Origin: a virus
Virus record (IMG/VR): IMGVR_UViG_3300044643_002965
Span: 62,001 to 126,000 of that record
Strand: one strand, 5' to 3'
DNA: 64,000 nt
Shown here one piece after another: positions 2,721 to 58,881 of this stretch (positions within the stretch are counted from its first letter, which is position 1; each line of letters starts with the position of its first letter). The translations under genes were made by a program, and so were the position numbers. The notes beneath the pieces are model-generated. The model made no database searches and was not told the origin of the DNA. It was given only the letters and a program-made list of their open reading frames with translations.

Positions 2721-2753
2721 TTTAAAAAAAATTCCCAGCCTAGGCTGGGAATT
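2721..2753 (-). terminator. Rho-independent terminator after the 1251-residue RCC1 gene
   Basis: A perfect 24-nt palindrome (2730-2753, stem AATTCCCAGCC) is followed on the minus strand by a run of seven T. It lies 27 nt past the stop of the gene ending at 2780 and before the next adhesin start at 2701. The CCCAGCC/GGCTGGG stem core recurs in the terminator at 51534-51559. Confidence 0.9.
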
Positions 2754-5700: not shown

Positions 5701-6535
5701 CATCCCATGTTTGTCCCCATATCCAATATGTATTGTCTGATTTTTTAGCTAATACTGTATACCAAGAAGATTTTACATAAGCATATCCACTTCCAATAAC
5801 TTGGGTTGGAGAGCTGGCTGTCATCATAGAATTATTTCCATTTTTTCCTGCGCTACCCTGACCCCAACTCCATAAAGTTCCGTCTTTCTTTAAAGCTATG
5901 CCACCAAGCCCATATACGGTGGAAACATTACTCCAATCTGTTGCGGTTCCTATTTGTACCATTGAGCTTCTGCCGGGGACTATTGTGGCAACATTTGTCC
6001 CATTTCCCCATGCAAAGTTGTATCCAGTACCCCATGCCCAAAGTGTTCCATCGCTTTTTACTCCATATGAAGAGTAATAGTCACACGACACATCTACCCA
6101 TGTTCCTGTATTTGAAACTAGAACAGGACTGCTTCTGTGGATTGTATTATTTGTTCCTAATTGCCCAGCATCATTTCTGCCCCATGCCCAAAGACTTCCA
6201 TCTGTTTTTATACCAAGAGAATTACTATATCCATTTTCTATTTTAGACCATACTCCAGAAGCAGAAAAAAATACAGGGCTACTCCTATGTATAACATTAG
6301 ATAATCCAAGCTGTCCATTTGTGTTTTTGCCCCAACACCAAATTGTTCCATCTGTTTTTTGAGCAAATACAGATAAAGATGAAGTTAGAATAGATGAATA
6401 GTCAGTACCTAAAGTGGGTGTTGGTATAGCTTTTGTAACAACAGATTGATTGCCTATAGTTCCGTAGCCATTTGGTCCCCATGAAAATAAATTACCAGAA
6501 GAATCTATTCCGTAAGAACAAGCCTGTGTTGACAT
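2780..6535 (-). CDS. RCC1-propeller / LamG / glycine-rich adhesin (downstream half of split adhesin)
   Basis: 1251 residues from ATG 6535 (MSTQACSYGI). This start is preferred over in-frame GTG at 6547 because AGGTGG lies 8 nt upstream and the ATG is 1 nt past the upstream gene's TAA. The N-terminal block has only six RCC1 blades (LFSWG, IWCWG, LWAWG, LWAWG, LWSWG, YWIWG) to about residue 330; the missing first blade is the C-terminus of the preceding gene. A short Thr/Ser linker follows (nt 5513-5570), then a complete seven-blade RCC1 block, a LamG/concanavalin-like domain (about 705-930) and a C-terminal glycine-rich region with GGGGGG and YYGGAG motifs (about 950-1251). Its frame is +1 relative to the upstream gene. 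Probably a virion adhesin; ligand unknown. Confidence 0.85.
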   Translation of the reverse strand: MSTQACSYGIDSSGNLFSWGPNGYGTIGNQSVVTKAIPTPTLGTDYSSILTSSLSVFAQKTDGTIWCWGKNTNGQLGLSNVIHRSSPVFFSASGVWSKIENGYSNSLGIKTDGSLWAWGRNDAGQLGTNNTIHRSSPVLVSNTGTWVDVSCDYYSSYGVKSDGTLWAWGTGYNFAWGNGTNVATIVPGRSSMVQIGTATDWSNVSTVYGLGGIALKKDGTLWSWGQGSAGKNGNNSMMTASSPTQVIGSGYAYVKSSWYTVLAKKSDNTYWIWGQTWDGSSSTSVNRSSPVQVAGSNFRNLSFSKLNVVGNGWPAFYGIAPVPPIVTTTSTTTTSTTSTTPAAEQGFLVWGNNTDGVLGIGDTVHRSRGVQLGTDSQWNSGRVLNYSTSGSNHTLITKWDGSLWGCGNNTYGQIGDGTLVHRSSPVQITGAWANAVSGAFYTVGVKTDGSIWAWGRSIDGSLGTNFGAGDQYYPYRIGLDYTWSGNPAHLDASRHVAAIKTNGTLWAWGYNGLGQLGNGTIAHRSSPTQIGTETTWAQVSVGGAVTSPYQSHTIAVKSDGTAWAWGANSSGQLGNNSIIHRSSPVQVLGTGYKYVKAGFGFSLAVKTNGSLWGWGDYNYSGTNYTPLNYANRSSPVQLLGTTSWSTNLSGFDTKYISSVGLNSTGPQNLWNWGSGTDGALYQISNVANIFSPLDSTSYPSGLNRTWSSAYQGYQRGAAGALVSLSAFGLIADWDPRNYVSGTTWTDASGTGNNATISNTDLQNGFVFRNEYSGYFAETSTAGYLSNSFLYYYGTYGEPIYITGTKAYYYSDDVRDQSFEIWARLKPSNTTESIATVGPFTLRLNYDQLVVTLNGTTIITPASKYTDWMFHQFTVTNTGTTTKLYVDGSLVSTATNSGLYTSGGYLSLGTTSCHLAKFRAWYGVVRTDAEILADYNSWKAIANYPVLTTRNTYSYTGSDQTWTCPAGVTSIYATAIGATGGSLTTSLGTSRAGNGGSITGKLTVTPGVTYRIVVGKSGDWSSGSTAPYGYAGSFSNAVNTGITGSVGAFGGGLAGIFATSVSRANALLVAGGGGGGQRLNIYNCSSPLVTQNFQETGWGAVGSGPGGSGRAVNNYTSCVNTSTRNGGTLTANGVGTAGIIAGGSASASGLTGGTGIGYSSYTDGLSGTNVLWMTGGSGGAGYYGGAGSTLVCASYYDPGGCGAPPPSRWVSGSGIIPSGGGSSYSADANSGHAFSNNGTAPWGFNGYVVICY
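5513..5570 (-). repeat. Short Thr/Ser linker between propellers
   Basis: Encodes about 18 residues of Thr with scattered Ser between the split propeller and the following complete propeller. It is the shortest of the Thr-rich linkers in the RCC1 adhesins. Confidence 0.8.
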
Positions 6536-6536
6536 A

Positions 6537-9500
6537 TTAAGCACCACCTATATTTGACCAAGTTGTGTTGTATTTAACGGGTATTGGCAAAGATTTGCTT
6601 GATACACTTCCGGCTCCAAGATTTCCGCCAGAGTTATCGCCCCATGCCCACAACAAATTTTGACCGACTGCGTATGAGCAGCCGTATGTAATAACTATGC
6701 TGCCGTTTCCTAATGTGTTGGCTACTGGACCATATGTGACACTTCCAACAGAATAGCTTGAGCCACCGCCAGCACCGCCAGTAGCATCGCCGCCGGAAGC
6801 ACCACCACCGCCACCGTAGTAGCCTGCGCCGCCACCTGCACCTTGGTTTCCTCCGCCGGTGCCTTCAAACTTCGATCCTGCACCGCCATACAAATATGCT
6901 CCTTGTTGTGGGAGTGTTACATATCCGTCAAATTGCGAACCGGCGTTTCCGGGTTGTGATTGATTTGCGCCCCAACCAGCATTTGCTCCAAAGCTGCCAT
7001 TGTATTCTCCACCGTTGCTGCCGGTTGGATTGCCACCGTTTCCACCACCAGTAGCAGATGATCTGCCGTTTGCACCACCACCGCCAGCAGCTATAGCTAT
7101 GACTGTGCTTGGAATGAACGAATCACTTGTAAATATGCCAGATAAGCCACCGCCAGCAGCGCCAGTTCTTTGAAGTCCTGAAGATGGGGCTTGTCCAGCA
7201 CCACCAAATCCATAAGCAGGTGTTTCGCTAGTGCCAGGATATCCGCCGACTACCAAGTATAGAGTTTGACCAGGCGTTACATCTATATTTGTATACATGA
7301 TTGCGCCACCACCACCAACAGATCCTCCTGTGGTGTTATCTCCACCCTTAGCACCTATTATGGTTGCGTCGATGTTGTAAACTCCACTTGGAACTGTCCA
7401 TGTTTGCAAGCTTCCCGTGTAGCTAAATTTGGCTACATTGAATAGTGGCAATTCTGCAGCGTATAGGCTTGTTATTTCTAAATCTGTCAAAGCATTCTTG
7501 TAAACTACGGCTCTTCCTATATCGCCTGTGAAGTATCCATCCGAAGCGTTTGCCCATCCAGTTATTTTGTAGCCACCTATTCTCCACCAGCCAGTTGGAT
7601 TGTTATCTCCTACTGGGTTTGCGGTAGATTTTGTATCGCTTCCAACAAGCACACCATCAATAAACAATCTTTGTGCGCCTGATTTTGCAGATATTACAGC
7701 ATGGTGCCAAGCGCCATCACAAACTATGGTTGAAGATGTTATGGTATAACCTGCTCCATTTGCAGATGTGGCAAAGTAAAGCTGCCCATTTGTTCCAATA
7801 TAAAGATGTCTACTGTAGCTTGTGGCTCCAGTACCTGTTTGAACATTTTCGTGTCCAATAATCTTTTTGCCGCTTGCGCTGGTTGTTTTAAACCAAGCAG
7901 ACAATGTGTAAACTTGCGGATTATTTTGAGAAATTGTTGTTGTTATTTCTCTTGTGCTATCGAAGCCAAGTGTATTTGGACATCCGAGATTAAACATTGC
8001 GCTAGATGTCATTGTGCCATTATTTTCTAATCCAGAAATATCTGCAATTGTTGTATTGGAGACACTTGCTGTGCTTACATCATAATTTAGAGCATAAGGA
8101 GTGTATTGCCTAATAGCTCCAGCGTATGTGGATGTTTGATTTAGCAGTCTCATCCAAAGTTTATCTTTTGTCAATGTTTGAACTGGTGAAGATCTATGTA
8201 CTGTGGTTCCATCGCCAATTTGTCCGTATGAGTTCCATCCCCAAGCCCACAATGTTCCATCTGTTTTTATGCCACATATGGAACCAGATACACCCATTCC
8301 AATATCACTCCATGTTCCTCCAGTAATAACTTGAACTGGAGAACTTCTGTGAATTTTGTCGTTTTGTCCAAGTGCTCCAGCGAAATTTTGCCCCCATAGC
8401 CATAAAGTGCCATCAGTTTTTATTCCCGCAGCTACTTCACTTATAACTATAGCTTTTTTCCATGTTCCACCAGTAATGACTTGAACTGGAGAACTTGCAT
8501 TTACTTCTGACATATTCCCGAGTTTTCCAGGATTGTTTTTACCCCATCCCCATAGTGTTCCATCTGTTCTGATACCAAGAGACGAGTCAGAGTCGCAGCT
8601 TACATAACTCCAAGATCCTGCTATTTGTACTGGAGAACTTCTGTCTATTTCTGTTCCATCTCCAACCTGACCATAGAAATTTTGACCCCATCCCCATAAA
8701 GTATTTCCAGGTTTTATACCAAGAACAAAATTTAAACCGCATGCAATTTGTGACCATGTTGTTCCTGATAATATTTGAACTGGGGTTGATAGATTCGTTA
8801 ATGTGCTTGGTTGTAGTAAAGTAGAATAACCATTACTACCCCAGCCCCATAGAGTTCCATCAGTTTTTAGTGCAAAGGCTGCAGAGCTTCCGAATTCTAT
8901 TGATGCCCAATTTGTTCCTCCTATTGCTGTTTGAACTGGACTGCTTCTATTTATTGTATTTCCTGTACCTAGTTGATAGAAGTCATTTCTACCCCATGTC
9001 CAAAGTGTTCCATCTTGCTTTATACATGCTCCGATTGGAAGAGTGAGAACACTATTTACAGTTGGTGTTTTCCATGTAATATCAGCTGTAAATTCTTGTT
9101 TTGGCGAAGTTGAATTGCCAGCTGTTGTGTTCTGTAATGTTGCACCATTTGCATTTGAACCCCATAGCCACAATTCGCCAGGAATAGGTGTTGTACTTGT
9201 TGTGCTTGTTGTGCTTGTACTCGTTGTGCTTGTAGTGGTTGTACTTGTAGTTGTAGAAGTTGTAGTTGTAGTTGTAGTTGTAGGAGCAAGAACTATAGAA
9301 GAAAATGCTGTTACTCCATTTATACTAGAACCAAGTCTAACCCAACTGTTTTCACTTGTTCCAAATTTGTATACTTGAACAGGGCTGCTTCTATGAACCT
9401 TTGTTTTATCTGCTAATGGTCCTTCTGAGTTCCATCCCCATGCCCAAAGTGTTCCATCACTCTTGATTGCTGCAACACCACCATAATTTCCATTCATATC

Positions 9501-12500
9501 AACATAGCCACTTCCAATAGATTGAACTGGACTGCTTACACTTTGTCCTTCCGTATTATTTCCAAATACTCCGACTCGGTTATATCCCCAAGCCCATATT
9601 GTTCCATCTGTTTTTAAGCCTATTGAACTATCATAGTTTCCAAAAACTTTTACCCATGTTCCGCCAGTTGAGATTTGTGTCAAAGTGCTTGTGTTGAACG
9701 AATTATTAATACCTAGTTGTCCGTTGCTGTTTGAGCCTGCACCCCACAATGTTCCGTCTTGTTTTATTCCAAAGTGGAATTTTCTTCCTGCGTAAATATA
9801 TTTCCACGATCCTGTATCAAGCTGAACAGGGCTAAGTGTGCTGGGCTTATTTAAAAGAGTTCCGCTATCGTTGTCTCCCCATCCCCATAGTGTTCCATCA
9901 TTCTTAATAGCCCATGTTGTTGTATAGCCAGTTGCCACAGATGTCCATGTTCCGCCACCGTATACTTGAACAGGACTGCTTCTATTAACATTTGTTCCAT
10001 CTCCTATTGTTCCATAAGAGTTTTGTCCCCAAACCCAAAGTGTTCCATCTGTTTTAATTGCACTTGCAGAATTCTGACTAGCAGATACTTGGTTCCAAGA
10101 ACCAGCAATTTGAACAGGGCTGCTTCTATTAATGGTTGTTCCATCTCCAAGTTTTCCTGCATTGCCAAATCCAGTGTTATAGCCAGCAGCCCATAAATTA
10201 TTAAGTGTGTCTATTGCGAACATGCACCCCTGAATATATCCTGTTCCTGTTGCAATCCATGTATTTGATCCTAATGTTACTTGTGTTAGACTGCTTCTAA
10301 GAACTATATCATTTTGGAAAGCTGATCCTCCAAAATTGCCAGTAGTATACAAGTATGCAGGAACAGGTGTGGTAGAAGTTGTAGAGGTTGTAGAAGTTGT
10401 AGAGGTTGTAGAGGTTGTGCTTGTAGTACTTGTAGTAGTAGTACTTGTTGTAGTTGTTGTGGTTATTTCTAGATCAGAAATAGCAGCAACAGATAGATAT
10501 CCATCTATATCAAGCCATGTGTAATTTGTTGCGGCTGTTTGAACTGGAGAAGATGTATCAAATACATTGTTTGTTCCTAGTACTGCTCCATCATCATTTA
10601 CGCCCCATGTCCACATTGTGGCATCACTCTTAATAGCACCTATTGTGTTATCTCCAAGAGAAACTGCCTTAGACCAATTTGTATCTGTTCCAAATTGAAC
10701 TGGACTGCTTCTGTTTATAACAGAATTGTTAGTATAAAGTCTGCCAGCGCCCCATAGTGTGCCATCGCTCTTTACTGCTAGCAATGAGTTAGATATTCCT
10801 GCTCTTACGCTTGACCATGTGGTATTTGTTCCAACTTGGGTTGGCGAAGATTTTCCTTTTACATCTCCTAAGCCTAATTCACCATTTAGGTTCCATCCCC
10901 AAGCCCACAATGTTCCATCTGTCTTAATTGCAAATGTGTTGTTTAGATTACATGCAATTGTAGACCATGTTGTATTCGATCCAACTTGGACAGGGCTTTG
11001 CTTGCTTCCCAATACTCCAAGTCCTAATTGACCCCATGCATTCAAGCCCCATGACCAAAGTGTTCCATCGGACTTAATTCCGCAAGCATGGCTTCCTCCA
11101 GCAGATACGCTAGACCATGCAGCTTCTGTTCCTATTTGAATTGGGGTGCTTGTTGGAACATTTGTGCAAGTTGTTCCATATTGATTATCTCCCCATGCCC
11201 ACAATGTGCTATCTAGTTTAATTCCTAACATGAAGTTAAATCCAAACATTGCTTGTGACCACAATCCGCCAACTTCTGTTGGTGTTGTTGCGTCAGCAAT
11301 TGAATTTAATCCTAGTTGTCCGTAGCTGTTTCTACCCCACACCCATAGAGTGTAGTTGTTCTTTATTACACCTAGGTTATAGTTGGAGGAACTTGGAATT
11401 ACAGATGTCCATACTTTATTTGCATCAATTTGAACAGGAGAGCTTCTGTGAACTGTTGTTCCATCTCCCATAGATCCGTTTTGAGCAGAACCCCATGTCC
11501 ACAATGCTCCGCCATTCATAGGCGCAGGAGTTGTAGTTGATGTAGTTGTGGTTGTGCTTGTAGTTGTGGTTGTTGTAGTGCTCGTTGTTGTGGTTGTTGT
11601 AGTGGTTGTTGTGGTAGTAGTTGTGGTAGTTGTCGGAGCAGGAGTTGTTGTAGTTGTTGTAGTAGTTGTTGTGGTTGTAGTTGTTGTAGTAGTAGTTGTT
11701 GTTGGAACAGGCATCGTTTCCTTCAACAAATACATTGTGGATTGAGCAGAACCAATTTTTGCCCAATCTAGTTCTGTTGCTATATTGTATACACATATTT
11801 GAACAGGACTGCTTCTATTTATATTTGTCTTATCGCCCAATTCGCCAGAAGCATTGCCGCCCCAAGACCATAGTGTTCCATCCTTCTTTACAGCAAATAC
11901 TGCGCTTTGAGAAGTTCCAACTCTATACCAATTTGTATCTACTCCAATTTGTATTGGAGAGCTTACATTTACTCTATTTCCATTACCAAATTGACCACTA
12001 GAGTTATCTCCCCATGACCATAATGTGTTATCGCTTCTTACTGCTATAACAGATGCAGACTCAACAGATACCGAACTCCATGTCGATCCTGCTGCTATTT
12101 GAACTGGCGAAGATACTGGTAGTTTGTTTCCAGTTCCTAGCTGTCCATATGAGTTTCTTCCCCAACCCCAAAGTGTTCCGTCTTTCTTTAGTCCAATTAT
12201 GAATTCTTTAGAAGCATATGTTTCATACCAGTCAGTAGATGCAGAGACTGATTGTACTGGCGAGGTAGCATCTGTTATGCTATTTGTTGCAAGCTGACCA
12301 TATTGATTTCTACCCCATGACCATAGTGTGCCGTCTGTTTTTACAGCAGACATAAACTGATATCCACAAGATATATTTGCCCATGTAGTATCTGTTCCAA
12401 GCTGTATTGGAGAACTTAGATCTGTTGTTGATGAATTTCCAAGTTGACCATAAGCATTTGCGCCCCAAACCCATAGGTTTCCAGAAGAATTAATAGCTGC

Positions 12501-15500
12501 TGTTAACCAAAGTCCAGTTGAAACAGAAGACCAGTTGGTTCCAGCAGCCAATGTTTGAACTGGAGAACTAGCATCTGTTTTAGAACCATCTCCTATGTTT
12601 CCATAAGCATTAGCGCCCCACACAAACAAAGATCCGTCTACTGCTATTCCAGCAGCGTGTTTTGCTACTGGAGAACGAGAAATATCTGCCCATCCTGTTC
12701 CATTTGATGGAATATAAAGAAGAGCATTTGAATTTGTTGTATTGCTTTGAGCAAGCGTTCCATAACCATTGAAACCAGTTGCAAACATATAGAACGGAGG
12801 TTCAGTTGTTGTTGTTGTGCTTGTAGTGCTAGTTGTACTAGTGGTTGTTGTGCTTGTAGTTGGAGCAGAAGTAGTAGTTGTTGTACTTGTAGTTGGAGCA
12901 GAAGTAGTGGTTGTTGTACTTGTAGTTGTTGTAGTTGGAGCCGGTGTAGTTGTTGTAGTTGTGGTTGTGGTGGTAGTTGTTGTGGTGGTTGTTGTAGTTG
13001 TAGTTGTGGTTGTGGTGGTTGGAGAAACACAATATGTTGTGAATGTAATATTGTCTTGTCCGCCCATGTATCCATCATAAAGAGATGCATAGCTTAATCT
13101 ATTGAATGTTCCTGTGACAGTCAAAGTAACTGTGCCAGAGTAGAAGTTGTAAACGTTTCCATCAGGGCCTGCAGCAACAGATTCCAATACTGTTCCTGTG
13201 TAGGAAGCATTTGCTACAGAAGCATTTAAGAAGGCAAGTGGTTCTGTTGATGGAACATCTGTAAATACATATACACCAGTGTTTACACCAAAGAATCCAA
13301 GCAATCCTCCGAATGTGTATACTTTTTGTCCAAACAAATTAAGAACTACTACTGATTCTGTATCTGATAAACACAAAGGAATTGGTGTGGTAGTTGTAGT
13401 AGTTGTTGTTGTAGTTGTGGTACTTGTAGTTGTGCTTGTGGTAGTAGATGTAGTAGTAGATGTAGTGCTTGTAGTAGTAGTACTTGTTGTAGGAGCAGAT
13501 GTAGTAGATGTAGTAGATGTAGTTGTAGTTGTTGGAATTATTGTAGTAGTTGTAGTTGTTGTTGTTGGAACTATTGTAGTAGTTGTAGTTGTTGTTGGAA
13601 CTATTGTAGTAGTTGTAGTTGTTGTTGGAACTATCGTAGTAGTTGTAGTTGTTGTTGGAACTATCGTAGTAGTTGTAGTTGTTGTTGGAACTATTGTAGT
13701 AGTTGTAGTTGTTGTTATTGGAGAAACTGTCGTTGTACTTGTTGTAGTAGCAGGACTTGCTGTAGTTGTTGTAGGCGGAGAATACGTTGTGCTTGTTGTA
13801 GTTGTAGTTGTCGGTATTGCAGAATATGTATTAATTGTTCCAAATGTTGGAGTATAAGTTGTTCCAAAATAGTCAAATGTAAATGTTTGTCCATTATAAA
13901 TAGCATCATGTGCAAGACTTAATACTGTTGTTGTTCCAATTACAACAGTTGTATTGGATGTAACGCCTGTTACTGTAGTGTTTGGAGCATATGTAAGGGT
14001 ATTGCCAATTATTCCAGTTGCTGTAATATTTCCTGGAATTGTTTGCGGAACGCCAGTGGCAGAAATTGTAGCAGTTGCAGCAACTGGTGTTGTTGTAGTT
14101 GTAGCAGGTGTTGGATAGCTATTTGTTGTTCCAAATGTGCCAGTATAAGTTGTTCCAAAATAATCAAATGTAAATGTTTGTCCATTATAAATAGCATCGG
14201 TAGCCAAAGTTAAAACAGTTGCTCCGCCTATTGTTACTGTTGTTGTAGAAGGAGTTCCAGTAGTTGTATTTGTTGGAGTATAAGAAATAGAATTTGTAGC
14301 AATTCCAGTCGCTGTAATATTTCCAGGAGCAGATCCTGCAACTCCAGTTGTTGGAATTACATATGTTACAGGAGCGGCTGGTAGATTATTTGTTATTCCG
14401 TAAGTTGCTGTGTAGGTGGCTCCAAAATAGTCAAATGTAAATGTTTGGCCATTATAAACAGCATCGTGAGCTAAAGTTAAAACATTTACGCCATCTACAT
14501 TAACAATTGTGCTGGAAGGAGTTCCTGTTGTTAATGCTGTCGGCGTGTATGTTATTGAATTTGTGGCGATGCCAGTTGCTGTTATTCCACCAGGAGCAGA
14601 TTCTGCAACTCCTGTTGCTCCTATTGTGTATGTTAAATTTGGACCTACGAAATTATTTGTTGTTCCAAATGTAGCAGTATATTTCACTCCAAAATAGTCA
14701 AATGTAAGTGTTTGACCATTATAAATAGCATCGTGAGCTAAGTTTAATACTGGAATTCCATTAATAGTTATATCTGTAGACGAAGAAACGCCTGTTGTAG
14801 CACTTGTCGGACTGTATGCCAATGTATTTGTAGCAATTCCTGTTGCTGTTATTCCACCTGGTATAGATTGTGGAACTCCAGTATTTAAAATTGTTACAAT
14901 TCCGAAATTATTTGTCGATCCCCATGTCGCAGTATAAGACACGCCATTATGAATAAATGTAAATGTTGTTCCATTGTAAGAAGCATCATGTGTTGCTGTA
15001 AAAACAGGCACTCCGCCAACATTAATAGTTGTAGATGACGGAGTTGTTGTGGAATATAATGGAGAAAAAGAAACAATATCTCCAGCGGTAGATTTTGCTA
15101 AAATTCCACCAGATATTGAAGCAGTGGTGTTTGATGTTTGAAATTCATAAACTGTTGGCGTTATTATGCCAGAAGCAATACTAATTAAATACGGTCTGCT
15201 GTCTATTGCTGGAGGACGAGAACTGTCTTTTACCTTTATTGTAAATGCATATATGTCTGCAATTGCTGGAGTTCCATAAATAGTTCCTGTTATTTCGTCT
15301 AAATACATTCCATATGGAAGAAATCCAGATGCAATAGACCATGTTAGAGGCGCTGCTCCCCCAGAAATCGGTATTTGATAATCGTAATTAGTATTTACAA
15401 GCCAAAATGGAGCTGGCAAATCTGATATTATTCTTGCTGTTGTTGGTAAATCTACAGGGTTTCCAAAATAAGTCCATTCTAATATTCTATCTTTGTAAGG

Positions 15501-15722
15501 AGTTTCGAGAATATATCTTGTGTAAACATCTATTGCTTGCCATCCATAAAGAGAAAACTCATCTCCTTGTTTCATTGCATAAGGTACATAATCTACCCAA
15601 ACCGTGGCTTTTGATAGTTGATACCATAAAAGGTCCCTATCAGTTCCAGGTAATGGATAATTATATAAATTATCAAACTTGGGTCGAACTCTAAATGATA
15701 TTTGTGGGTATTCGCCTAGCAT
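6537..15722 (-). CDS. 3061-residue mucin-like multi-propeller adhesin, copy 2
   Basis: Start at 15722 (MLGEYPQISF) matches the paralogue at 2701. Order: conserved N-terminus (about 1-88); He_PIG-like putative-Ig domain (88-182); five Ig-like repeats of about 85 residues with TATGIATN and YNGQTFTFDYFG motifs (205-635); Thr-rich linker with TIVP units (637-780); domain ending TYCVSP (782-900); Thr linker (900-972). Four RCC1 blocks follow (about 972-1334, 1400-1750, 1786-2144, 2181-2547), each with seven GTLWxWG-type blades and separated by Thr linkers. Then come LamG (2547-2764) and a glycine-rich ALK-like region (2765-3010). One further RCC1 blade (LLWAWG) precedes the stop at 6537-6539. RCC1 folds are seven-bladed, so the last blade appears to belong with the six in the next gene. 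Likely an extended tail-associated adhesin. No Shine-Dalgarno is visible. Confidence 0.88.
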   Translation of the reverse strand: MLGEYPQISFRVRPKFDNLYNYPLPGTDRDLLWYQLSKATVWVDYVPYAMKQGDEFSLYGWQAIDVYTRYILETPYKDRILEWTYFGNPVDLPTTARIISDLPAPFWLVNTNYDYQIPISGGAAPLTWSIASGFLPYGMYLDEITGTIYGTPAIADIYAFTIKVKDSSRPPAIDSRPYLISIASGIITPTVYEFQTSNTTASISGGILAKSTAGDIVSFSPLYSTTTPSSTTINVGGVPVFTATHDASYNGTTFTFIHNGVSYTATWGSTNNFGIVTILNTGVPQSIPGGITATGIATNTLAYSPTSATTGVSSSTDITINGIPVLNLAHDAIYNGQTLTFDYFGVKYTATFGTTNNFVGPNLTYTIGATGVAESAPGGITATGIATNSITYTPTALTTGTPSSTIVNVDGVNVLTLAHDAVYNGQTFTFDYFGATYTATYGITNNLPAAPVTYVIPTTGVAGSAPGNITATGIATNSISYTPTNTTTGTPSTTTVTIGGATVLTLATDAIYNGQTFTFDYFGTTYTGTFGTTNSYPTPATTTTTPVAATATISATGVPQTIPGNITATGIIGNTLTYAPNTTVTGVTSNTTVVIGTTTVLSLAHDAIYNGQTFTFDYFGTTYTPTFGTINTYSAIPTTTTTTSTTYSPPTTTTASPATTTSTTTVSPITTTTTTTIVPTTTTTTTIVPTTTTTTTIVPTTTTTTTIVPTTTTTTTIVPTTTTTTTTIIPTTTTTSTTSTTSAPTTSTTTTSTTSTTTSTTTSTTTSTTTTTTTTTTTTPIPLCLSDTESVVVLNLFGQKVYTFGGLLGFFGVNTGVYVFTDVPSTEPLAFLNASVANASYTGTVLESVAAGPDGNVYNFYSGTVTLTVTGTFNRLSYASLYDGYMGGQDNITFTTYCVSPTTTTTTTTTTTTTTTTTTTTTTTTTPAPTTTTTSTTTTTSAPTTSTTTTTSAPTTSTTTTSTTSTTSTTTTTEPPFYMFATGFNGYGTLAQSNTTNSNALLYIPSNGTGWADISRSPVAKHAAGIAVDGSLFVWGANAYGNIGDGSKTDASSPVQTLAAGTNWSSVSTGLWLTAAINSSGNLWVWGANAYGQLGNSSTTDLSSPIQLGTDTTWANISCGYQFMSAVKTDGTLWSWGRNQYGQLATNSITDATSPVQSVSASTDWYETYASKEFIIGLKKDGTLWGWGRNSYGQLGTGNKLPVSSPVQIAAGSTWSSVSVESASVIAVRSDNTLWSWGDNSSGQFGNGNRVNVSSPIQIGVDTNWYRVGTSQSAVFAVKKDGTLWSWGGNASGELGDKTNINRSSPVQICVYNIATELDWAKIGSAQSTMYLLKETMPVPTTTTTTTTTTTTTTTTTTTTPAPTTTTTTTTTTTTTTTTTSTTTTTTTSTTTTTSTTTPAPMNGGALWTWGSAQNGSMGDGTTVHRSSPVQIDANKVWTSVIPSSSNYNLGVIKNNYTLWVWGRNSYGQLGLNSIADATTPTEVGGLWSQAMFGFNFMLGIKLDSTLWAWGDNQYGTTCTNVPTSTPIQIGTEAAWSSVSAGGSHACGIKSDGTLWSWGLNAWGQLGLGVLGSKQSPVQVGSNTTWSTIACNLNNTFAIKTDGTLWAWGWNLNGELGLGDVKGKSSPTQVGTNTTWSSVRAGISNSLLAVKSDGTLWGAGRLYTNNSVINRSSPVQFGTDTNWSKAVSLGDNTIGAIKSDATMWTWGVNDDGAVLGTNNVFDTSSPVQTAATNYTWLDIDGYLSVAAISDLEITTTTTTSTTTTSTTSTTSTTSTTSTTSTTSTTPVPAYLYTTGNFGGSAFQNDIVLRSSLTQVTLGSNTWIATGTGYIQGCMFAIDTLNNLWAAGYNTGFGNAGKLGDGTTINRSSPVQIAGSWNQVSASQNSASAIKTDGTLWVWGQNSYGTIGDGTNVNRSSPVQVYGGGTWTSVATGYTTTWAIKNDGTLWGWGDNDSGTLLNKPSTLSPVQLDTGSWKYIYAGRKFHFGIKQDGTLWGAGSNSNGQLGINNSFNTSTLTQISTGGTWVKVFGNYDSSIGLKTDGTIWAWGYNRVGVFGNNTEGQSVSSPVQSIGSGYVDMNGNYGGVAAIKSDGTLWAWGWNSEGPLADKTKVHRSSPVQVYKFGTSENSWVRLGSSINGVTAFSSIVLAPTTTTTTTTSTTTSTTTTSTTSTSTTSTTSTTPIPGELWLWGSNANGATLQNTTAGNSTSPKQEFTADITWKTPTVNSVLTLPIGACIKQDGTLWTWGRNDFYQLGTGNTINRSSPVQTAIGGTNWASIEFGSSAAFALKTDGTLWGWGSNGYSTLLQPSTLTNLSTPVQILSGTTWSQIACGLNFVLGIKPGNTLWGWGQNFYGQVGDGTEIDRSSPVQIAGSWSYVSCDSDSSLGIRTDGTLWGWGKNNPGKLGNMSEVNASSPVQVITGGTWKKAIVISEVAAGIKTDGTLWLWGQNFAGALGQNDKIHRSSPVQVITGGTWSDIGMGVSGSICGIKTDGTLWAWGWNSYGQIGDGTTVHRSSPVQTLTKDKLWMRLLNQTSTYAGAIRQYTPYALNYDVSTASVSNTTIADISGLENNGTMTSSAMFNLGCPNTLGFDSTREITTTISQNNPQVYTLSAWFKTTSASGKKIIGHENVQTGTGATSYSRHLYIGTNGQLYFATSANGAGYTITSSTIVCDGAWHHAVISAKSGAQRLFIDGVLVGSDTKSTANPVGDNNPTGWWRIGGYKITGWANASDGYFTGDIGRAVVYKNALTDLEITSLYAAELPLFNVAKFSYTGSLQTWTVPSGVYNIDATIIGAKGGDNTTGGSVGGGGAIMYTNIDVTPGQTLYLVVGGYPGTSETPAYGFGGAGQAPSSGLQRTGAAGGGLSGIFTSDSFIPSTVIAIAAGGGGANGRSSATGGGNGGNPTGSNGGEYNGSFGANAGWGANQSQPGNAGSQFDGYVTLPQQGAYLYGGAGSKFEGTGGGNQGAGGGAGYYGGGGGASGGDATGGAGGGSSYSVGSVTYGPVANTLGNGSIVITYGCSYAVGQNLLWAWGDNSGGNLGAGSVSSKSLPIPVKYNTTWSNIGGA
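9185..9288 (-). repeat. Thr/Ser linker between RCC1 propellers III and IV
   Basis: Minus-strand ACN/AGY codons encode about 34 residues, mostly Thr with Ser and ending in TTPIPG. It separates two complete seven-blade blocks. Confidence 0.85.
10366..10468 (-). repeat. Thr/Ser linker between RCC1 propellers II and III
   Basis: Encodes about 34 residues in repeated TTS triplets. At the nucleotide level it is a near-regular 9-12 nt repeat, a plausible site for slippage. Confidence 0.85.
11528..11705 (-). repeat. Thr linker between RCC1 propellers I and II
   Basis: Encodes about 59 residues, almost all Thr, with one central PAP and one terminal PAP. It joins the first and second seven-blade RCC1 blocks. 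Confidence 0.85.
12804..13021 (-). repeat. Thr linker before RCC1 propeller I
   Basis: Encodes about 72 residues: a 25-Thr run, then PAP and SAP units, ending TTTEPPF. It follows the TYCVSP-ending domain, exactly as the 223-748 tract does in the paralogous adhesin. Confidence 0.85.
13385..13812 (-). repeat. Thr linker with TIVP units
   Basis: Encodes about 140 Thr-rich residues with Ser-Pro, Ile-Val-Pro and Ser-Ala-Pro punctuation, between the Ig-like repeats and the CVSP domain of the 3061-residue adhesin. Confidence 0.88.
13561..13710 (-). repeat. Five tandem 30-bp units (TIVP linker)
   Basis: Five consecutive 30-nt units differ only by ACTATT versus ACTATC. Each encodes seven Thr plus Ile-Val-Pro. 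Direct tandem copies of this identity are prone to gain or loss in whole 10-residue steps without frameshift. Confidence 0.9.
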
Positions 15723-45350: not shown

Positions 45351-46034
45351 ATGCAGATTTTAAACGAAACACTTCATTCTAAATGGAATACAGAAGTAGA
45401 AAATACTTACATTATTACAATTAAAGGTCATGCTGCTTCAGAAAGCATGGGACAACGCTGTCTTCAATCTTGCAAGCAAGTGGGTCAAAAGGCTGTAATT
45501 TGGGATGCTTTTGATGGAACCGACAAAACAATAGAAGGCATAAAAGTACCTGAACATTCTCAAAATGCAACATGGCTTAAGTGGCTTCGATTGATAAATC
45601 ATAAGTTGACCAAGCCAGAAATATGCTGCCTACTTTCCCATTTTAGTTTGTGGTGCAAATGCATTGAACTTGATAGACCAATTGCAATCCTTGAACATGA
45701 TGCAATTATGGTCCAAAAGTTTACAAATCATAGTGCTATAAATGCAATCGTTTATCTTGGATGCATAGAACAATATTCTTCAAATTATTGGAATATGATT
45801 CCACCTCATGCACAACTTAATGTAGATTATAGGCATTTGTTAAGAACACATGCTTATAGTATTGACCCTGCTATGGCAAAAAATCTAGTTACTCATATGA
45901 TCGAAAAAGGAATTCACACCTCTGCAGACTGTTTTATTAGATTTGATAAATTTGCCATGCTTTGCTTTGGAGTCTACGCATACGATCAGGCTGGAGAAAC
46001 AACTATTCCAGAAATTGGCAAGGAGAAAAAATGA
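45351..46034 (+). CDS. GT25-family-like glycosyltransferase, copy 1
   Basis: 227 residues. N-terminal TYIITIKGHAASESMGQRCL, then AFDGTD, EICCLLSHFSLWCKCIELD (about 83-101) and the acidic ILEHDAIM motif near 103-110. This follows the GT25 (LPS beta-galactosyltransferase LpsA/Lex1) pattern, in which the acidic motif binds the metal-nucleotide sugar. HAYSIDPAMAK matches the later conserved strand. Its stop overlaps the next GT25 start (ATGA). Probably adds a hexose to a surface or virion glycan. Confidence 0.78.
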   Translation: MQILNETLHSKWNTEVENTYIITIKGHAASESMGQRCLQSCKQVGQKAVIWDAFDGTDKTIEGIKVPEHSQNATWLKWLRLINHKLTKPEICCLLSHFSLWCKCIELDRPIAILEHDAIMVQKFTNHSAINAIVYLGCIEQYSSNYWNMIPPHAQLNVDYRHLLRTHAYSIDPAMAKNLVTHMIEKGIHTSADCFIRFDKFAMLCFGVYAYDQAGETTIPEIGKEKK

Positions 46035-46729
46035 ATGTAAGCGAATCAATTAAATTTAAATATAAAATTGATGTTGAATCAGCTTACATCAATTACCTTC
46101 CAAACAATGAAACATCTGTTAAATTGGCAAATCAATGTGCAGAAAGCTGCAAAGAAGTTGGAATGCCATACAAGATGTGGGAAGCATTTGATGGTCTTGG
46201 CGATTACATAAAAGCACCAAAGCATCTAGAGAATGAAAACTGGCTCAAATGGATCAAGTGTCCAAATCCAACTTTAGACAAAGCTGAGATTTCTAATTTT
46301 CTGACACATGTTTCTCTTTGGGCAAGATGTGTTGAAATTGATAAGCCAATAGTCATATTGGAACACGATGCTGTTATGCTTCAAAAGTTTGATACACATG
46401 CAGCTTTCAATTGCATTAATTATTTGGGAAGTATAGAACAAGTTAAAAATGGTTTTAAATTTGGTCCTATACCTCCACATCTGCAATATTATGGATTAAG
46501 AACACTTTGCAGAGCGCATTCTTATAGTATTGACTCTTTCATGGCAAGAAAGCTTTTATCTAGCGTATTAGAAACTGGAATTACCAAAAGCATTGATGTC
46601 TACATGAGGGCAGATATTTTTACCCAAATTCAAATGGGTATCTATGCTTTCGATAAAAACATGGAAACCAGTATCATTCCAAGAAACAAGACTACAGAAG
46701 ATAATAGAATTTGCGATAAGATATTCTAA
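46031..46729 (+). CDS. GT25-family-like glycosyltransferase, copy 2
   Basis: 232 residues from ATG 46031, chosen because AGGAG sits 5 nt upstream and the ATG overlaps the previous TGA; an earlier in-frame ATG at 45962 lies deep in the previous gene. Paralogue of the preceding gene: AFDGLGDY, EISNFLTHVSLWARCVEID, VILEHDAVM, HSYSIDSFMARKL. Two consecutive GT25 copies suggest two successive similar linkages. The 3' end overlaps the convergent epimerase gene by 4 nt. Confidence 0.78.
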   Translation: MNVSESIKFKYKIDVESAYINYLPNNETSVKLANQCAESCKEVGMPYKMWEAFDGLGDYIKAPKHLENENWLKWIKCPNPTLDKAEISNFLTHVSLWARCVEIDKPIVILEHDAVMLQKFDTHAAFNCINYLGSIEQVKNGFKFGPIPPHLQYYGLRTLCRAHSYSIDSFMARKLLSSVLETGITKSIDVYMRADIFTQIQMGIYAFDKNMETSIIPRNKTTEDNRICDKIF

Positions 46730-58284: not shown

Positions 58285-58743
58285 TTAAACACCAATATAT
58301 GAAATAGATTGAGTGCCAGAAGATGATATTGCATATACTTTTTGCACATCATCTATTGGTAGAGTTATTGCTTCACCTGGCCCTAATTCAAATCCATCTG
58401 ATAATACAACACCAGATGTTCCAACAAATATATTTGAAGTATTTGAATTGCTTGATTTTATTGTAACTGCAACATTTATTAATTTTGATGTAGAAGAAAT
58501 AGCGGCTGCAGATGTTGTAACTGAATATTGTCCAAATACAAGGCTTGATCTAGAAACTTTTTGATCTGATGCTATAACAACCGGCCTGCTATTTGCCATT
58601 GAAGCTTGGCCTTGAGCAGCGTCTCTAATTACCAGTCCTATTGCGCTTGATGATGGCAAAGTATTTGTTAAAGCCACAACAGAACTGTTTGCATCAGTTA
58701 TTTGTATGGGAGCCGCAGTTTGAATTCTAGTTAAGTCAGCCAT
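58285..58743 (-). CDS. Small phage structural protein
   Basis: 152 residues, beta-rich. MANSRPVVIASDQ, VAVTIKSSNSNTSNIFVG, ELGPGEAITLPID and VYAISSSGTQSISYIGV are a pattern seen in small tail/head-associated proteins of many tailed phages. It heads a four-gene fibre block ending at 51583. The ribosome-binding site is weak (AAAGG). The 138-nt gap upstream holds no gene and no clear promoter. Confidence 0.75.
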   Translation of the reverse strand: MADLTRIQTAAPIQITDANSSVVALTNTLPSSSAIGLVIRDAAQGQASMANSRPVVIASDQKVSRSSLVFGQYSVTTSAAAISSTSKLINVAVTIKSSNSNTSNIFVGTSGVVLSDGFELGPGEAITLPIDDVQKVYAISSSGTQSISYIGV

Positions 58744-58881
58744 TTATTAGCCTTTGTATAAACAATAACTAGCACCAATATATTAAAAACATATTGGGGC
58801 TAGATTATTTAGTTCAAGATAGTACTTTTTTATAAAAATTGAATCAAAAAACAAAACCCATATTAATTAAAATAGTTGAGA

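Follow-up and report, generated by a model that had tools for sequence, protein, structure and literature searches.

Introduction

Several described systems bear on the locus reported here. Translational coupling is strongly dependent on very short distances between genes and is found preferentially where the genes encode subunits of the same complex (PMC10666635). In known termination-reinitiation pairs (PMC6728339, PMC10666635), the stop and the start lie a few nucleotides apart on the same strand, as they do here on what is apparently also one transcript, and the products are often subunits of one complex. Such pairs commonly show a -4 or -1 overlap, whereas at the present site the spacing is +1, one domain is cut in two and the coupling is predicted. 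Programmed +1 ribosomal frameshifting, known from RF2 (prfB) and used by phages for structural proteins, as in Listeria phage PSA, shares with our site the +1 frames and a Shine-Dalgarno-like sequence before the stop; published RF2 sites read CUU U and UGA C (PMC5009743).

The protein fold is likewise a known one. RCC1-family propellers of eukaryotes (UVR8, RCC1, HERC2) adopt the same seven-blade fold, although these are single chains of unrelated function, whereas here two open reading frames are involved. Phage RCC1-repeat arrays (Synechococcus phages S-SRM01 and BUCT-ZZ01; IMG/VR contigs L060-L139) also carry their blades mostly in sevens, and the neighbouring gene often starts 0-1 nt after the stop, as at the present locus. 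No boundary dividing a propeller was found in these arrays, while here 1 + 6 blades lie in separate frames. A literature search on split propellers or RCC1 phage adhesins returned nothing closer.

A seven-blade propeller divided between two open reading frames

The record IMGVR_UViG_3300044643_002965 is a viral contig of 132,223 bases from a large tailed phage and includes a gene for a contractile-tail sheath. The window, i.e., the whole stretch of 64,000 nucleotides that was analysed, comprises its bases 62001-126000. Two adjoining open reading frames, P0001 and P0002 (Table 1), both match the RCC1 repeat (PF00415) above the Pfam cut-off, with 464.8 and 171.2 bits, respectively, and the P0002 frame stays open over 1251 codons.

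Table 1. Features of the P0001/P0002 locus, in window positions
Feature	Position	Strand	Remarks
P0001, adhesin, 3061 aa	6537..15722	minus	Order of parts: docking domain, Ig-like and Thr-rich segments, four complete 7-blade RCC1 propellers, LamG-like and Gly-rich domains, one RCC1 blade at the C-terminus
Docking domain (YPQI..F...FSLYG..A..Y), P0001 N-terminus	15453..15722	minus	Also at two other N-termini, in one short ORF and on contigs G016 and L087; putative docking role
Blade 1 of the split propeller, C-terminal in P0001 (GCSYAVGQNLLWAWG...TWSNIGGA)	6540..6683	minus	
AGGTG, Shine-Dalgarno match of 5 bases	6545..6549	minus	9 nt 5' of the P0002 ATG
Interval of the one-nucleotide frame switch	6537..6548	minus	12 nt; second frame closed by TAG just upstream
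TAA stop of P0001	6537..6539	minus	Next base T
ATG start of P0002	6533..6535	minus	1 nt past the stop, +1 frame
P0002, second chain, 1251 aa	2780..6535	minus	Six RCC1 blades, complete 7-blade propeller, Gly-rich domain; lacks a docking domain
Blades 2-7 of the split propeller, N-terminal in P0002	5576..6535	minus	
Terminator-like hairpin and T run	2730..2753	minus	3' of P0002

Counted by WG motifs, P0001 comprises four blocks with all seven blades plus a single final motif at residue 3024, while P0002 opens with six motifs (residues 16, 65, 115, 165, 221 and 270) followed by one complete seven-blade block. Three more complete blocks are encoded by the next gene downstream (1947 aa, most of it outside the window). 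A sequence-only reading of this DNA had proposed a propeller split 1+6 across a stop codon beside five other complete blocks, and both counts are borne out for P0001 and P0002 (4 + 1 complete blocks). The split propeller thus consists of 1+6 WG motifs, giving seven blades across two chains and not in one. Read through the shift, the spacing from blade 1 to blade 2 is 54 residues, compared with 53, 52, 52, 56, 56 and 54 residues in six sister blocks. As the joined spacing falls within the 52-56 residues of the sisters, the halves fit together with no residue lost.

For alignment and modelling, a read-through segment was composed in which TAAT was taken as one step. The fused segment aligns with UVR8 across the junction (phmmer). 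AlphaFold models it with moderate confidence (mean pLDDT 63.5, pTM 0.73), and the model superimposes on UVR8 and RCC1 chains with a TM of about 0.75. A model without the extra blade scores alike (pTM 0.73), so that the models do not discriminate between a complete and an incomplete split form and show no structural need for two chains.

Stop, start and frame switch at the junction

The assembly sequence at the junction is GCTTAATATG. On the minus strand this region reads GGT GGT GCT TAA T ATG, with P0001 ending in ...TWSNIGGA and P0002 continuing in the +1 frame. The arrangement of frames, the TAA (6539-6537), the ATG one nucleotide later (6535-6533) and the upstream AGGTGG (6549-6544) are all as first described; the AGGTGG, a candidate stimulator of a +1 shift, would also be usable as a ribosome-binding site for the P0002 ATG. 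A TAG at 6550-6548 closes the frame of P0002 (frame 2) on the upstream side, and the switch must therefore fall within the 12 nt from 6548 to 6537. Codon-usage log-odds place a frame change at the same position.

This phage uses Shine-Dalgarno sequences: a match of at least 5 bases precedes 30 of the 74 ATG starts of this genome. The match at the P0002 start, AGGTG, is modest. In post hoc counts over this genome, 5.8% of off-frame stops have an own-frame ATG within 4 nt, and the combination of off-frame stop, ATG within 4 nt and 5-base match occurs at 9 of 5790 (0.16%). The junction shares with coupled gene pairs a start a few nucleotides from the stop on the same strand (TAA T ATG) and a ribosome-binding sequence (AGGTG) 9 nt upstream. 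Given the stop, the ATG one nucleotide on and the AGGTG, expression of P0002 is best accounted for by putative coupled re-initiation.

No terminator-like hairpin was found on the minus strand at the junction, while one with a T run follows P0002. Together with the lack of a docking domain in P0002, this makes P0001 and P0002 look like one original gene on one transcript. A TAAATA-type sequence abuts the ATG of P0001 (15723-15745) and that of the downstream 1947-aa gene (2702-2724) on the minus strand of the window; it is possibly a late-promoter motif adjoining the start. These two starts show no clear Shine-Dalgarno match, unlike most genes of the phage. A candidate internal late promoter (GTTAAATAC) at the junction was rejected, as the motif is too frequent in this genome to count.

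The docking domain

Three proteins open with a shared domain of ~90 residues that is missing from P0002: P0001, the 1947-aa product of the next gene downstream and a protein of 1540 aa. It matches no Pfam or PHROG family. We infer that it attaches the adhesins to the virion. The domain also begins the giant adhesin of the relative G016 (IMGVR_UViG_3300008108_007099), which a final scan of viral contigs for the domain found again, with nothing else. A short ORF at L019:18478-18834 (record 58478-58834, minus) consists almost entirely of the domain, about 90 residues from its own ATG. Contig L087 carries the domain on the C-terminal side of an RCC1 propeller, at the C-terminal end of a second protein, and by itself (7995-9317, 9382-10395 and 11929-12213).

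RCC1 gene boundaries at other viral loci

A propeller-alignment search yielded 80 viral RCC1 loci, to which three phage regions and the record itself were added (83 other loci). Across these loci blades come mostly in sevens (about 226 blocks), and 29 boundaries between neighbouring RCC1 ORFs are present, the site under study excluded; some contigs are near-identical, and the 29 boundaries are not 29 independent events. At 23 of them the upstream ORF has complete sevens and the downstream ORF either complete sevens or an end cut off with the contig. The other six belong to L102, L103 and L105, three contigs that are near-identical and whose middle RCC1 ORF (L102:9072-12005) shows 19 recognisable blades, a count not divisible by seven. 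These were rejected as further in-propeller splits, since the flanking ORFs carry seven complete blades each. At several of the 29 boundaries an ATG lies 0-1 nt after the stop. An ORF holding the blades missing from its neighbour was found at 0 of 29 boundaries in the 83 loci; among the loci examined, a propeller shared by two ORFs is seen only at the present site. This result, the exact joined spacing and the lack of a docking domain in P0002 point to one ancestral gene of ~4313 codons.

The one-base shift in related contigs

The shift rests on one base in one assembly. Searches for an orthologous site yielded none, whether with P0002 peptides against viral and genome contigs, with P0001 C-terminal peptides against viral contigs, or with the exact junction pattern with variable gap against viral contigs. 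Three further contigs, at 99-100% identity, belong to the same species but carry other genes, and none reaches the junction. Two of them match the record over 15.9 kb with zero differences, and the third differs by about 0.8%, with one 51-base gap and two small gaps. Comparison with G016, the closest syntenic relative, showed no within-gene break in 38 orthologues (10,773 aligned codons; eight align over part of their length). The consensus is therefore generally good, although an error at this one base is still possible.

The giant adhesin of G016 (L144:1-12843) differs from that of the record though homologous to it. It shows an apparent one-base shift of its own near L144:1487-1491, where a frame of 506 codons that includes the docking domain is succeeded by one of 3789 codons that includes the RCC1 blocks, and no good start adjoins this break. 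It may be that genes of this kind break frequently, that both breaks are errors in the sequence, or that shifting serves some use not yet apparent. Given this apparent second break, our confidence in a functional reading of the P0001/P0002 split is kept in check.

Competing explanations

In one rival account the virus has a single continuous adhesin gene, and the one-nucleotide shift arose as an error of assembly or consensus. That the halves fit exactly after a change of one nucleotide would follow from such an error, which also agrees with the repetitive nature of the region, the origin of the record as a metagenome contig, the similar apparent break in the homologous gene of G016 and the failure to find a propeller shared between ORFs at any other viral RCC1 locus examined. 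Against it speak the two contigs that are identical to the record over 15.9 kb and the unbroken frames of the 38 orthologues (10,773 aligned codons) in G016; moreover, a random error would be expected to meet an ATG with a 5-base Shine-Dalgarno match at only about 0.2% of sites. We consider an error somewhat unlikely, yet a serious contender. A real but recent indel, by which the distal adhesin would be inactivated or switched off (by loss or as a reversible on/off state) with the second chain left unused, appears improbable. Adhesins are generally under shifting selection, and the shift in G016 with no good start beside it might mean that breaks recur; however, P0002 is free of additional decay along its 1251 codons, a usable start lies right at the break, and the junction has no long homopolymer of the type that drives phase switching.

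Other readings would leave the two frames either fused or unrelated. The earlier reading had offered either a tight stop-restart or a prfB-like +1 shift; the former agrees with the ATG and the AGGTG, while the latter fares poorly. Programmed +1 frameshifting at GCU UAA, producing a minority of a ~4313-residue fusion protein, would suit the +1 geometry and the Shine-Dalgarno-like sequence just 5' of the stop. Nevertheless, GCU re-pairs poorly in +1, and the model does not predict the adjoining ATG. Compared with the prfB and PSA sites (PMC5009743), the junction has GCU rather than CUU/UUU before the stop, UAA U in place of the weak UGA C of RF2 genes, and no proline slip codon. A downstream RNA stimulator was also sought, and the sequence after the stop holds no more structure than shuffles (z = 0.67; pseudoknot-free folds). 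Neither a prfB-like nor a PSA-type shift is supported, and programmed +1 frameshifting at this site is very improbable. Two ordinary, independent adjacent genes, with the terminal blade of P0001 as a leftover, would be in keeping with the stop-start coupling common among adjacent phage RCC1 genes. Elsewhere, however, neighbours do not complement each other's blades, and here the blade absent from one chain is present in the other at exact spacing, which makes independence scarcely credible.

Proposed split gene and re-initiated second chain

We tentatively favour, as possible rather than probable, an explanation in which P0001 and P0002 descend from a single giant RCC1 adhesin gene that was cut in two by a shift of one nucleotide, with P0002 made by re-initiation and the blades pairing. 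The analysis establishes the anatomy, the precise match of the halves, the rarity of a split of this kind and the stop, ATG and Shine-Dalgarno arrangement; a real break in the virus, re-initiation and blade pairing between chains are what we infer. The ancestral tailed-phage gene of about 4313 codons would have acquired the shift inside its fifth propeller. Ribosomes would stop at the TAA of P0001 and re-initiate at the ATG one nucleotide on, helped by the AGGTG, so that both chains would be made from one transcript. The last blade of P0001 could then pair with the six-bladed start of P0002, and this pairing of blade 1 with blades 2-7 might hold the anchorless P0002 on the virion.

The more specific form of this proposal is a two-chain adhesin whose joint is the split propeller, the C-terminal blade of the virion-anchored chain non-covalently closing the six-bladed propeller of the anchorless, re-initiated chain. 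We hold it to be doubtful. A difficulty for the favoured explanation as a whole is that a blade of 50 residues has to meet the chain it pairs with. If real, the split propeller would be one occurring in nature, in which a shift of one base distributes a repeat fold over two polypeptides that are joined after translation, and it would represent a simple route from a giant viral adhesin to a two-subunit adhesin.

Other genes of the phage

Several other genes of this phage display features worth recording. A full-length CTP synthase (PF06418 and GATase domains) is encoded at L018:5019-6665, and the matching PHROG is labelled as of unknown function. The ribonucleotide reductase large subunit at L018:2073-4664 is apparently broken by an insert that resembles an intein and matches LAGLIDADG weakly. 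At 45351-46729 of the window, two overlapping tandem ORFs each match a 2OG-Fe(II) oxygenase PHROG, which suggests a tandem duplication.
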